Assembly: GCF_001544615.1 (NCBI RefSeq)
Contig: NZ_FCNV02000001.1
Location: 372,001 to 436,000 of the forward strand
Length of the DNA: 64,000 nucleotides
DNA from: Caballeronia concitans
GTDB lineage: Bacteria; Pseudomonadota; Gammaproteobacteria; Burkholderiales; Burkholderiaceae
Reading direction: 5' to 3'
Of this stretch, positions 5,469-43,570 are shown piece after piece. Each line of letters starts with the position of its first letter. Within the stretch, counting starts at the first letter, position 1. The position numbers were made by a program, and so were the translations under genes. Under the pieces are notes generated by a model. The model worked only from the letters and a program-made list of their open reading frames with translations. It was not told where the DNA came from and searched no databases.

Positions 5469-5888
5469 TTACTTTTCTTTTATTTCTCCGTCGATATAAA
5501 CCCAGCGGCCATTGGCATCGCGCGTAAAGCGGCTGGCTTCATGCAGACGATGAGCGCGTCCGTCCACCTTGTATCGCGCGACGAAGTCCACTTCCTCGTG
5601 ATTCGCGTCGATCGCCGTGTGGCGCTTGATCTGCAGGCCGAGCCAGCGCGTGCCGGTGTCGGAGGCATCGAGGTCGGGCGGGCAGGTTGCCGCGTCCCAC
5701 GTCGCGCGCAGGTACGCGGTATCGCCGAGCACGTAGGCGGTGTAGCGCGAGCGCATCAGTTCCATCGCGTTGGCGGGCGCTGCGTCGCCGTCGATGAAAC
5801 GCCCGCAGCAATCCTCGTAGCGCGGCGCCCGCGCATTCGCCTTCTGCGCTGGCGACGCCCCGCCGCACGGGCATTCCACCGGCTTCAT
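5469..5888 (-). CDS. YchJ-family (UPF0225) protein
   Basis: 139 residues from the ATG at 5888, which overlaps the GST stop as ATGA; the open frame reaches 5945 but the coupled ATG with MKPVECPCGG matches the family start. It has a SEC-C-type metal-binding N-terminus (CPCGG at residues 5-9 and DCCGRFI near residue 27), then an NTF2-like domain with MRSRYTAYVLGD and the WLGLQI and VDFVARYK strands. The family is conserved in Proteobacteria without a firmly known function. It is last in the liuR-headed gene string. Confidence 0.88.
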   Translation of the reverse strand: MKPVECPCGGASPAQKANARAPRYEDCCGRFIDGDAAPANAMELMRSRYTAYVLGDTAYLRATWDAATCPPDLDASDTGTRWLGLQIKRHTAIDANHEEVDFVARYKVDGRAHRLHEASRFTRDANGRWVYIDGEIKEK

Positions 5889-6493
5889 GCATCGACTCCC
5901 GGCATCGCGACATGACCCGGCTGGCTGCGCACGCGATCCAGCCACGCGCGGATCGCCGGATAGCGCGACAGGTCGAGACCGGCTTCATCGGCGACATGCG
6001 TGTACGCGAAAAGCGCGATGTCCGCGACCGTGTATCGCTCGGCGACGAAGAACGTGCGCGCGGCGAGATGCTGCTCCATCACGTCGAGCGCGCGATACGA
6101 ACCGGCGGTTTTCTCGGGCAGACGCGGATCGTCGGGCTGCTTCAAAAACTGCCGGATGAAGCGCGCGACGGCCACGTACGGCTCGTGACTGTACTGCTCG
6201 AAGAACATCCACTGCAGCACTTGCGCGCGTTGCAGGCGGTCGTCGGGCATGAGCGGCGTGCCGTCGGCGAGATAGCAGAGAATGGCGTCGGATTCGGTGA
6301 GCGTCGTCGTCTCGTCGATGCACAGCACCGGCACCTTGCCGTTCGGATTGAGCTTGCGGAAGGCGTCGGTGCGCGTGGCGCCGTGCATCATGTCCACTTC
6401 ATGCCAGACATACGGCAGCTTCAGTTGTTCGAGCGCGAGACGCACCTTGTAGCAGTTGCCGGACGCCGAAACGCCATGCACGTGATAGGTCAT
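5885..6493 (-). CDS. glutathione S-transferase family protein
   Basis: 202 residues with an N-terminal thioredoxin-like domain (MTYHVHGVSASGNCYKVRLA; the Ser/Asn region is where the catalytic residue sits), the NGKVPVL cis-proline loop, TESDAILCYLA, and an all-alpha C-terminal domain with VADIALFAYTHVADEAG. The start at 6493 is chosen because the upstream frame is low-complexity and the N-terminal beta strand begins here. The substrate is not predictable. It sits 40 bp after the SDR gene and is coupled to the ychJ-like gene. Confidence 0.88.
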   Translation of the reverse strand: MTYHVHGVSASGNCYKVRLALEQLKLPYVWHEVDMMHGATRTDAFRKLNPNGKVPVLCIDETTTLTESDAILCYLADGTPLMPDDRLQRAQVLQWMFFEQYSHEPYVAVARFIRQFLKQPDDPRLPEKTAGSYRALDVMEQHLAARTFFVAERYTVADIALFAYTHVADEAGLDLSRYPAIRAWLDRVRSQPGHVAMPGVDA

Positions 6494-6533
6494 TCGGATG
6501 TTCCCGGTCGTATTGGTCGAATAAGTCGATGCG

Positions 6534-7211
6534 TCACCAGTCGAGCTTCGTGCCGTCGTACTGGATGAAGCGGCCGTTGAAGTCGTCGCGCAACGCACGC
6601 GCTTCCGCGATCACCGCGCGCATGCCGGTGACGCTGCGCGCGACGTCGATGGCCGCCGACGGCCCGCCCATCTCCGTGCGCACCCAGCCCGGATGCAGCG
6701 CGATGCACGCCGAATGCCGCGATTCCAGCGAAGCCACCTTCAGCGCCGAATTGAGCGCCGCCTTGCTCGCGCGATACAGCCAGCCGGTCGTGCCGCTCGC
6801 TTCGCTGATGCTGCCCATCTTGCTCGACACGACGGCGAGCACGCCGTGCGCCGCGTCCGTGAGCGGCAGCAGCACGGGGATGAGCTGCATCGGGCCGCGC
6901 ACGTTGGTGTGCATGACGGCGTCGAAATCGTCGCTGCTGATGGTTTCCACGCTTTCCGTGCGCGGGCCGTACACGCCCGACACGATGATCGCGACATCGA
7001 GCCGCTCTTCGTCGAGCTGCCACGCGAGCGCGGCGATCTGCTCCGGCTGCGTCACGTCGAGCGAGAAGGTTTGCGCGCCGAGCGCGTCGAGCGTGGAGAG
7101 CGCGGCCTTGTCGCGCGCGGTGGCCAGCACGCGCCAGCCGTCGCGGCAATATTCGCGTGCGAACTCGTGGCCGATACCGCGTGATGCGCCGATGATCAGG
7201 GCGGTTTTCAT
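6534..7211 (-). CDS. short-chain dehydrogenase/reductase
   Basis: 225-residue classical SDR. The NAD(P)-binding motif GASRGIG is at residues 8-14, DVT follows the adenine-binding strand, and the active site YRASK is preceded by SSKMGS with the catalytic serine. The usual NNAG motif is replaced by SGVYG, which is tolerated in this subfamily. It lies 22 bp downstream of the thiolase, so it is probably in the same transcript and may act on a hydroxyacyl or aldehyde intermediate; that is inference. Confidence 0.88.
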   Translation of the reverse strand: MKTALIIGASRGIGHEFAREYCRDGWRVLATARDKAALSTLDALGAQTFSLDVTQPEQIAALAWQLDEERLDVAIIVSGVYGPRTESVETISSDDFDAVMHTNVRGPMQLIPVLLPLTDAAHGVLAVVSSKMGSISEASGTTGWLYRASKAALNSALKVASLESRHSACIALHPGWVRTEMGGPSAAIDVARSVTGMRAVIAEARALRDDFNGRFIQYDGTKLDW

Positions 7212-40152: not shown

Positions 40153-40665
40153 GTGAAGGCACTGAAGCAACCCCGTCATGGGCATCTCAAGGCGTCGTTG
40201 GCGCTCGTCGCGGGCGTCATCGGCGTCTGCGCCGTCGCCCCGGCGCACGCCGGACTCGGCAGCGAGCCCTTGACCGCGCCGCAGGGCGCGACCACCGAAC
40301 AATCGGTCGTGCACGCCGCGGCATCGGGTGCGTCGGCATCGGCGGCATCCAATTACACCGTCCGCACGACGACGCTCGCGAGCGGTACGGTCGTCAACGA
40401 ATATGTGTCGTCGGCAGGCACGGTGTTCGGCATTTCTTGGCGCGGACCGCGCATGCCGGACCTCTCGACGCTGCTCGGGACCTATTTCCCGCAGTATCAG
40501 CAAGGCTTGCTCGCGCAGCGCGCCGCGCGCGGCGGACGCGGACCGGTGAGTGTCCAGGACACGGGCCTCGTCGTGCGTTCGGGCGGCCACATGGGCGCGT
40601 TCTCAGGCAGCGCGTATCTGCCGCCATCCTTGCCCGCCGGCGTTTCCGCCAGCGACATCCAGTAA
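40153..40665 (+). CDS. exported DUF2844 protein
   Basis: 170 residues from a GTG at 40153 with a perfect AGGAGG 5 nt upstream. A signal peptide covers residues 1-33 (LALVAGVIGVCAVAPAHA, cleavage after AHA). The mature protein has a Ser/Ala-rich linker and then NYTVRTTTLASGTVVNEYVS, GTVFGISWRGPRMPDL and STLLGTYFPQY, the conserved core of DUF2844. Function is unknown. It lies 18 bp before the DUF3443 lipoprotein gene; the two families commonly occur as a pair in Burkholderiaceae, so they probably act together outside the cytoplasm. Confidence 0.85.
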   Translation: MKALKQPRHGHLKASLALVAGVIGVCAVAPAHAGLGSEPLTAPQGATTEQSVVHAAASGASASAASNYTVRTTTLASGTVVNEYVSSAGTVFGISWRGPRMPDLSTLLGTYFPQYQQGLLAQRAARGGRGPVSVQDTGLVVRSGGHMGAFSGSAYLPPSLPAGVSASDIQ

Positions 40666-40683
40666 GCGACCGGAGAATCCGAT

Positions 40684-41961
40684 ATGCGTAGAACGACACT
40701 CGGCCCCGGCGCGGCTTCCTCCTCGCGCGCCGGCAACGCAGCCCGCTGGCTCGGCGCGCTGTTTCTTGCGCTGACGCTCGCCGCGTGCGGCGGCGGCAAC
40801 GACAATCACAACAGCTCGAGCGGCGGTTCCAGCGGCGGCTCGTCGAACACGGCGAACGCGCAGCCCACTCCCGTTAACGGCACGAACGCCGTGCCCATCA
40901 GCGTCGATGCGGGCGTCGCGGGCTTCGTCAACATCCCGAACGTTTCGGTCAAGGTTTGCGCGCCCGGCACGAATGTTTGCCAGACCATCGACCATATTCA
41001 GCTCGATACGGCCTCGTTCGGCCTGCGCATCCTGAGTTCGGCGGCGCAGTCGGTGCTCGGCAGCCTGCCGACGGTGCGCGCCGCGAACGGCGGCCAGCTC
41101 GCCGAATGCGCCGGTTTCGCGGACGGCTATACGTGGGGCACCGTGCGTCAGGCGGACGTGCGCATCGGCACGGAACTGGCGAGCGCCGTGCCGGTGCAGG
41201 TAATCGGCGATCTGGATGCATCGGCGGCGCCGCAAGGCCTGAACGGCTGCCCGTCCGGCAACGACGAGAATTCCACCGCCGATATCGGCGCGAACGGCAT
41301 TCTCGGCATCGGCCCGGCAACCTACGACTGCGGCACGAACTGCGCGACGACCGCGCTCAACAGCATGTACTTCTCGTGCGCGAACGGCACGAACTGTACG
41401 GCGACGACCGTGCCGGTGGCGCAGCAGGTCACCAATCCCGTCACGAAGTTCGCGGTCAACAATAACGGCGTGATCCTGCAACTGCCTCAGGTTCCGGATA
41501 CCGGAGCCGCGAGCGCGAGCGGCACGCTGGTATTCGGCATCGGCACGCAGGGCAACAACACGCTCACGGGCGTGACGAAGCTCGGCACCGACACCTACGG
41601 CGACCTCTCGGGCACGTATAAGGGCGCGTCGGTCCAGGCGTTCTTCGATTCCGGATCGAACGGGCTGTTCTTCCAGGACAACTTCCCGCTCTGTTCGAGT
41701 TCGAGCGTGTTCTATTGCCCGAGCTCCGAACAATCGCTTTCGGCGACGGTGAAGGGCAGCGAAGGCAATACGGCGACCGTTCCGTTCAGTATCGTGAACG
41801 CGCGCACGCTGACCTCGGGCGGCGGCAAGTACGCGTTCAACAGCCTGGGCGGCCAGTTGGGAATGAGCGGCTCCTTCGATTTCGGCCTGCCGTTCTTCTT
41901 CGGGCGGCACGTTTTCGTCGGATACGACCTGCCGGGCAGCTCGCCGTACGTGGCGTTCTGA
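40684..41961 (+). CDS. DUF3443 lipoprotein with aspartic-peptidase-like motifs
   Basis: 425 residues. A lipobox LTLAAC places the lipidated cysteine at residue 35; a Ser/Gly/Asn linker follows, and then a Cys-rich globular domain. Family assignment is DUF3443, function unknown. Reading the domain, I see IQLDTASFGLRIL (108-110), TWGTVRQADVRIG, NGILGIGPATY (204-214), TLVFGIG (281-287) and AFFDSGSNGLFF (D322). Their order and content resemble the first Asp loop, flap-adjacent strands, DGILGL, hFGG and second Asp loop of pepsin-like aspartic peptidases. The first motif is DTA instead of DTG, so activity is uncertain. Confidence 0.8.
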   Translation: MRRTTLGPGAASSSRAGNAARWLGALFLALTLAACGGGNDNHNSSSGGSSGGSSNTANAQPTPVNGTNAVPISVDAGVAGFVNIPNVSVKVCAPGTNVCQTIDHIQLDTASFGLRILSSAAQSVLGSLPTVRAANGGQLAECAGFADGYTWGTVRQADVRIGTELASAVPVQVIGDLDASAAPQGLNGCPSGNDENSTADIGANGILGIGPATYDCGTNCATTALNSMYFSCANGTNCTATTVPVAQQVTNPVTKFAVNNNGVILQLPQVPDTGAASASGTLVFGIGTQGNNTLTGVTKLGTDTYGDLSGTYKGASVQAFFDSGSNGLFFQDNFPLCSSSSVFYCPSSEQSLSATVKGSEGNTATVPFSIVNARTLTSGGGKYAFNSLGGQLGMSGSFDFGLPFFFGRHVFVGYDLPGSSPYVAF

Positions 41962-42010
41962 ACCATCGCGCTGGCCGGCGCTGCATCGGCTGGTCAGCGT
42001 GATGCGCATA

Positions 42011-42847: not shown

Positions 42848-43495
42848 TTACATCTTCTTGTTGCGCACTTGCTGGACGAGGAAGTCCATGACCTGCGTCG
42901 TGCCCGTCAGGCTGTTGGTCTGCGCCGGGCCGGTCACGTATTTGCCCTGCACGATGACCGTCGGCACGCCGTCGATCTTGTAGTCCTGCAGCAGCTTGGC
43001 GTCGCGCTGCACGTCGCTTTGCGTCGAGAACGAGTTGTACGCGTCCATGTACTTCTTCTTGTCGACGCCTTGCGTCGCGAGGAAGTCAGCCTGCGCTTGC
43101 GGCGTCAGCAGGTAGTTCTTCTTCACGTGGATTTCGTTGAACACGGCGGGCGTCACCTTCTCCTCGACGCCGAGCGCGACAAGCGCGTGATACATCTTCG
43201 AATGCGGAATGAAGTCGTCGCGGAACGCCACCGGCACGCGCTTGAACACGACATCCGGACCCTGCTTCTTTTCCCACGCTTCGATATACGGCTCGAATTC
43301 GTTGCAGTGCGGGCAGCCGTACCAGAAGAACTCGATGACTTCGATCTTGCCCGCCTGTGCGCCGACCGGCTGCGGCGCCTGAAGCACCGTGTAGTCCTTG
43401 CCGGCGGCAGGAGCCGCGGATGCCACGCTCGCCACGCTCAACGACGCGGCGGCGATGCCGAGGGAAAGGGCGATGGCGCTGAACAGTTTTTTCAT
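42848..43495 (-). CDS. dsbA: periplasmic thiol:disulfide oxidoreductase DsbA
   Basis: 215 residues from the ATG at 43495. A signal peptide ends near residue 27 (VASVASA). The thioredoxin active site is FFWYGCPHC with C61 and C64, and the cis-proline loop is DGVPTVIV. It introduces disulfides into exported proteins, likely including flagellar P-ring and toxin-type proteins. Three 11-bp direct repeats lie 76 bp upstream. The SDR gene follows within 15 bp. Confidence 0.95.
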   Translation of the reverse strand: MKKLFSAIALSLGIAAASLSVASVASAAPAAGKDYTVLQAPQPVGAQAGKIEVIEFFWYGCPHCNEFEPYIEAWEKKQGPDVVFKRVPVAFRDDFIPHSKMYHALVALGVEEKVTPAVFNEIHVKKNYLLTPQAQADFLATQGVDKKKYMDAYNSFSTQSDVQRDAKLLQDYKIDGVPTVIVQGKYVTGPAQTNSLTGTTQVMDFLVQQVRNKKM

Positions 43496-43570
43496 GATCG
43501 TTTTGGAGCGAAGGAGCAAGGTGAGAGGCAGCGTGGCCGGTGCGTAGAAGGCCCATCAGTGGGACATACG

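Follow-up and report, generated by a model that had tools for sequence, protein, structure and literature searches.

We propose that DUF3443, the family of a lipoprotein encoded in a 64,000-nucleotide stretch of the Caballeronia concitans genome (assembly GCF_001544615.1, contig NZ_FCNV02000001.1, positions 372,001 to 436,000 of the forward strand; hereafter the window), is an exported, membrane-anchored bilobal aspartic peptidase of pepsin fold (clan AA) with a dedicated partner, DUF2844, a reading to which we give a probability of about two in three. Four computed results carry this proposal: a predicted fold, an invariant pair of aspartates, a lipoprotein signal and a constant gene pairing. 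The window protein was assigned to DUF3443 by a Pfam scan (PF11925, E 5.2e-130, 434.1 bits versus a curated cut-off of 25, residues 67-425), and seven of its nine closest named homologues are Caballeronia records; the other two are Candidatus Burkholderia verschuerenii and Burkholderia peredens, and all nine are 76-79% identical to it. Our alignment holds 120 distinct DUF3443 members, the window protein included; it derives from 128 frames, after removal first of four short fragments of disrupted genes and then of duplicate sequences. The features of the gene are given below in window positions, with fractions counted over this alignment.

40684..41961, + strand: DUF3443 lipoprotein of 425 amino acids (PF11925), predicted to fold as a bilobal aspartic peptidase from about residue 65 to 425
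40684..40788, + strand: lipoprotein signal peptide and lipobox LAAC (Cys35), recognised by eye (LTLAAC-GGGN), then a linker rich in Gly, Ser and Asn that runs to about residue 66
41005..41016, + strand: lobe-1 active-site loop D108-T-A-S111 (DTGS in the family), with D108, T109 and S111 in 120/120
41026..41028, + strand: R115, Arg in 119/120
41107..41139, + strand: predicted flap hairpin CAGFADGYTWG (residues 142-152) with F145 at its tip, placed from the model strands
41293..41313, + strand: NGILGIG (204-210), the hydrophobic-hydrophobic-Gly strand of lobe 1, with G205 and G208 in 120/120
41647..41658, + strand: lobe-2 active-site loop D322-S-G-S325, placed from the alignment
41875..41922, + strand: C-terminal FDFGLPFFFGRHVFVG (398-413), strand-Gly-helix-strand, with G401 and G407 in 120/120

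The predicted model has two beta lobes along one chain, as expected of the pepsin type within clan AA, and both structure prediction and fold search favour the bilobal aspartic-peptidase fold that an earlier note on this gene had suggested. The fold search gave a full-length match to family A1, and all 50 rows among the matches listed are A1 proteinases; bacterial pepsin homologues have no row among these 50, which says nothing on kinship. Retropepsins have one lobe per chain and act as dimers, whereas the DUF3443 chain holds both Asp loops and both lobes. Judged from the model, DUF3443 almost certainly adopts a pepsin fold. That the motifs resemble those of pepsin by chance, DUF3443 having another beta fold, would agree with a sequence-profile comparison that is not significant when taken alone; this explanation is contradicted by the fold prediction and the fold search, and we reject it as extremely improbable.

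The motifs that first pointed to this fold were found exactly as the earlier note had given them, in the same order and with the same spacing, in the open reading frame (ORF) at 40684-41961 (+). In its translation, IQLDTASFGLRIL with D108 and AFFDSGSNGLFF with D322 place the two aspartates 214 residues apart, and between them follow, in order, TWGTVRQADVRIG (150-162), NGILGIGPATY (204-214) and TLVFGIG (281-287). The flap strands occupy model residues 78-85 and 88-101 (protein 138-145 and 148-161), and the Gly strand of lobe 1, with a clear ILG, occupies model residues 145-149 (protein 205-209). FDFGLPFFFGRHVFVG forms a strand at model residues 337-340, a helix at 342-345 and a strand at 349-353, and we take it as the counterpart of the C-terminal ILG segment of pepsin.

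Both aspartates, whose invariance across DUF3443 had been named as a check, are present in all 120 distinct members, and since they are two of only three fully invariant Asp positions (108, 215 and 322), the motifs are more than a chance pattern. T109, S111, G113 and G324 are also invariant, and the Asp-Asp spacing ranges from 202 to 234 residues (median 213). The lobe-1 loop reads DTGS in 98 members, DTAS in 19, DTES in 2 and DTMS in 1, and the lobe-2 loop DSGS in 100, DTGS in 18 and DSGT in 2; the D-[ST]-G-[STA] motif is complete in both lobes in 98 of the 120, with Asp in both lobes throughout.

The window protein itself departs from this motif in lobe 1 (DTAS) and fits it in lobe 2 (DSGS), so that the DTA flagged earlier is indeed a departure from the usual DTGS. 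The distant members listed (L003, L007 and L009-L012), whose genomes range from the same bacterial family to other classes within the phylum, all combine DTGS with DSGS or DSGT. On a tree from which column 110 was left out, four changes are needed to explain DTA, all inside a single 74-row group that holds the window protein, and all 46 rows outside that group have Gly at residue 110; because of this distribution, the sequences indicate that DTA arose within the window's clade as a derived and repeated relaxation, with both Asp retained even there. In two loci with tandem pairs (L098 and L110, about 5780-7104), one DUF3443 copy reads DTES, with Glu for Gly, and the other DTGS. The window's genome also holds a second DUF3443-DUF2844 pair (L002, G000:C11:71931-73121), whose DUF3443 is 46% identical and has the canonical DTGS and DSGS loops.

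The description of the protein as a secreted, Cys-rich lipoprotein fits the family as well as the window, where the lipobox was recognised by eye. In 114 of 124 family frames, a pattern search placed a lipobox no more than 95 residues ahead of the domain; among the ten others, seven have a Cys-Gly-rich signal that narrowly escapes the pattern, and the N-terminal regions of three (L007, L112 and L118) are longer or of another kind. The domain contains exactly ten Cys in 117 of the 120 aligned members, eight in two and eleven in one, and ten Cys would allow five disulphides to form outside the cytoplasm. A gene for a DsbA-like thiol oxidoreductase (42848-43519, -) lies two genes downstream of this ten-Cys lipoprotein, on the opposite strand.

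In the mechanism that we propose, D108 of lobe 1 and D322 of lobe 2 would both bind a single catalytic water on the cleft floor, and a peptide substrate would be covered by the flap hairpin 142-152, which carries Phe145 at its tip. Outside the cytoplasm the enzyme would be stabilised by about five disulphides; there it would most likely cleave periplasmic or extracellular peptides or proteins, and the upstream DUF2844, a small exported protein, would act as its dedicated partner. Catalysis, the cellular site and the role of DUF2844 are the parts of this scheme that we infer. Sequence and model suggest that typical DUF3443 members are probably active peptidases. For the window's own copy the chances of activity are about even, and with DTA in lobe 1 its activity may be reduced or altered.

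Two sets of observations weigh against this reading, the first of which lies in the structure and the catalytic motifs. Foldseek TM-scores by query length reach only 0.47-0.55 among the matches listed, and the lobe arrangement or the loops therefore differ from those of pepsin. The Gly of the lobe-1 loop is lost in 22 of the 120 members, the window copy included. At the tip of the flap, where family A1 has Tyr (Tyr75), position 145 is Phe in 119 members and Tyr in only one. The hydrophobic-hydrophobic-Gly motif of lobe 2 is mostly D-[LWFI]-G, with Asp as its first residue (position 399) in 110 of the 120 and VLG in L011. We take F145 to stand where pepsin has Tyr75 and R115 to stand at the Asp+7 place of pepsin Trp39, both equivalences having been set by eye on presumed pepsin numbering.

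Some plant xylanase inhibitors are pepsin-fold proteins without catalysis, and DUF3443 could likewise be a binding protein whose cleft holds a peptide, a glycan or a partner protein and whose loops are kept for structure. The replacement of Gly at residue 110 by A, E or M, the A state alone having arisen by several changes on the tree, would fit such a role, as would the Phe of the flap and the Arg in place of Trp39. However, both Asp are kept even in the 22 members without the Gly, together with T109 and S111, and this speaks against a binding-only family, which would be expected to lose Asp in some branch. Nor does Phe at the flap place exclude activity, because the Marinomonas and Sinorhizobium medicae proteins, two of the seven bacterial pepsin homologues in Table 2 of PMC2761423, also have it there. 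We consider a binding-only role unlikely and continue to favour the peptidase.

The second set concerns sequence similarity and reported activity. The profile comparison with A1 that had been suggested as a check was not significant: hhalign against six bacterial A1 sequences gave a local E of 0.03 over 17 columns around D322 (DUF2844 control, E 0.43), and against eight such sequences a local E of 0.02-0.05, with the lobe-1 loop of DUF3443 paired with the lobe-2 loop of A1, and 0.43-0.54 in global mode. PF00026 had no match in the window protein or in 22 and 70 scanned DUF3443 members. The DUF3443 profile found nothing at E <= 10 in six A1-bearing genomes, a search that had no positive control, and its one match among PDB sequences, at E 0.84, was to an unrelated chain; the single-sequence search there was empty.

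Turning to clan AA more widely, weak matches among the 70 members at E <= 10 were to PF13650 (15), PF13975 (12) and PF09668 (1), the best at 3.1e-4. When 20 of these 70 were scanned singly, four had a clan-AA match at E <= 1, and all single-scan matches were below the curated cut-off; PF13650 matched the second Asp loop of L106 (5.2e-4) and the first of L057 (0.078), and PF13975 the second Asp loops of L091 and L099 (0.15 and 0.14). The window protein had no clan-AA match in the Pfam scan. The sequence evidence for DUF3443 in the wider clan AA is thus weak, and no activity of any DUF3443 member was found in the literature searched.

DUF3443 might also be a divergent but true member of family A1, of the shewasin kind, whose sequence similarity has eroded. 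The full-length fold match and the shared order of motifs would agree with this, as would an LGLP stretch near the C-terminus that also occurs in L143, L147 and L148, three of the six bacterial A1 sequences. The A1 profiles are thin, so that the lack of significant sequence or profile similarity, a point against this origin, is a failure to show kinship and not proof of a separate one. DUF3443 moreover has ten Cys and is an exported lipoprotein, in contrast to the bacterial A1 group, which is reported to lack signal peptides (PMC2761423). We regard membership of A1 as doubtful; as it stands, DUF3443 is a pepsin fold without detectable family A1 membership by sequence.

The second component of the proposed system is encoded just ahead of the lipoprotein.

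40153..40665, + strand: DUF2844 protein of 170 amino acids, with a GTG start and a Sec-type signal peptide recognised by eye (PF11005, E 1.3e-41)

Its gene ends 18 bases upstream of the window's DUF3443, and a DUF2844 frame is present at 80 of 80 named DUF3443 loci and at 44 of 44 loci from the genome search (L013, with a DUF3443 match under the cut-off, being left out). Domain coordinates place a DUF2844 domain upstream and on the same strand of all 124 intact DUF3443 domains (120 distinct sequences at 122 loci, a few of which are the same place fetched twice), with a gap of 117-1070 bases (median 224), and none of the 124 pairs is fused in one frame. Our genome samples comprised 398 genomes of the phylum and 200 of the bacterial family; in the former, the 10 genomes with DUF2844 over its cut-off are exactly those with DUF3443 over its own. 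The tandem copies in L098 and L110 arrive as DUF2844-DUF3443 pairs. Among the loci printed, nearest relatives by the two proteins mostly agree (L004, L017 and L018 differ), and their distances show a mirror correlation of r 0.87 (103 pairs; at most 0.14 when shuffled); 17 of the 120 rows were excluded by a distance cut-off on long open frames, and domain coordinates show their partners. This correlation shows co-inheritance of neighbours and is not evidence of contact between DUF2844 and DUF3443.

The DUF2844 model (pLDDT 83.9, pTM 0.78) consists of strands, a helix and further strands, and the sequence is conserved over much of its length, with a mean column identity of 57%. The fold search found no significant structural relative; its low-scoring best rows include the C-terminal domain of YpeB and 3elg, a DUF2874 protein. 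DUF2874 has been linked to the PepSY and BLIP-like proteins, which were postulated to inhibit peptidases (PMC2954215), and a test of DUF2844 for a PepSY-type sequence match found nothing. By analogy, this likeness might fit a DUF2844 that restrains or folds the peptidase, and it is only a lead. DUF2844 could instead be a substrate of the peptidase, or be matured by it: constant pairing and co-duplication suit an enzyme and its substrate as well as an enzyme and its inhibitor, but the conservation and compact model of DUF2844 resemble a working domain and not a substrate tail, which makes this improbable to us. We think that DUF2844 is likelier an inhibitor, a propeptide-like folding helper or a targeting subunit than a bystander. 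More tentatively, the two genes may form an exported pepsin system of proteobacteria, in which a periplasmic protein, doing the job of the N-terminal propeptide of pepsinogen, would act in trans to control a lipid-anchored bilobal peptidase that stands apart from A1 by sequence.

DUF3443 exceeds its cut-off in 10 of the 398 phylum genomes and 90 of the 200 family genomes, with one to seven copies each. PF00026 was found in 7 of the 398 (6 over cut-off) and in 2 of 274 in a further sample, and none of the 398 held both PF00026 and DUF3443. The statement in the earlier note that bacterial members of this fold are few calls for qualification: DUF3443, with 11 of 398 at E <= 0.001, is about as frequent in this sample as PF00026 and occurs in different genomes. 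DUF3443 seems to expand by tandem duplication, and three matches lie within about 6 kb at G537:C1:377538-383128. The DUF3443 frame is broken in two leaf-nodule symbionts, Candidatus Paraburkholderia calva and Candidatus Burkholderia brachyanthoides (L113 and L115), where that copy may therefore be dispensable. The match in L013 (G137:C33:30355-30594; 19.9 bits, profile positions 42-125) lies in a 4118-residue open frame.

In the window, the pair is flanked by a chemotaxis cluster (CheB, a response regulator and CheZ) and by opposite-strand SDR, DsbA-like and SPOR genes. An antisense frame of 468 codons (40603-42009, -) had no Pfam match at E <= 0.01, and we take it as a by-product of high G+C.

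Open-licence full text yielded no paper on DUF3443, PF11925 or DUF2844, nor one on a pepsin-like aspartic lipoprotein in the Burkholderia periplasm; subscription journals and database annotations lay mostly outside this search, and the fold may already have been noted by others. On the more tentative reading of an exported two-gene pepsin system, DUF3443 would form a separate clan-AA family located in the envelope, and the DTA, DTE and DTM copies would be specialised paralogues. A pepsin-fold family that is exported, rich in disulphides and constantly paired with one partner would offer a testable exported bacterial counterpart of pepsin-type peptidases; its fold bears on the origin of the two-lobed enzyme, and the proposal joins two families of unknown function in one hypothesis.

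The closest known system to DUF3443 is family A1 of clan AA (pepsin, endothiapepsin, Irpex lacteus aspartic proteinase), from which it differs by the lack of detectable sequence membership, Phe for the flap Tyr, Arg for Trp39, ten Cys, a lipoprotein anchor and a partner gene, and the window copy also by its lobe-1 DTA. Pepsin-type peptidases had been assumed to be eukaryotic, and the first bacterial ones were described without a signal peptide (PMC2761423). DUF3443 resembles these shewasin-type homologues in being bilobal and bacterial, in the LGLP after the lobe-2 Gly (L143, L147, L148) and in the flap Phe of the Marinomonas and Sinorhizobium medicae members; it is exported, whereas shewasin D is reported to accumulate mainly in the cytoplasm (PMC4814920). 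RloA/RimB peptidases (PMC12239564) share clan AA with DUF3443, and RloA has a signal peptide; unlike DUF3443, RloA is described as retropepsin-like, with one lobe per chain in retropepsins, and in its operon it is accompanied by an inactive-transglutaminase membrane protein and an ATP-grasp protein, not by DUF2844. Asp_protease_2 and gag-asp_proteas (PF13650 and PF13975) belong to the same clan, and it is to them that the Asp loops of DUF3443 give weak profile matches. For the partner DUF2844, the closest known system is that of the PepSY/DUF2874/BLIP-like periplasmic proteins (PMC2954215).
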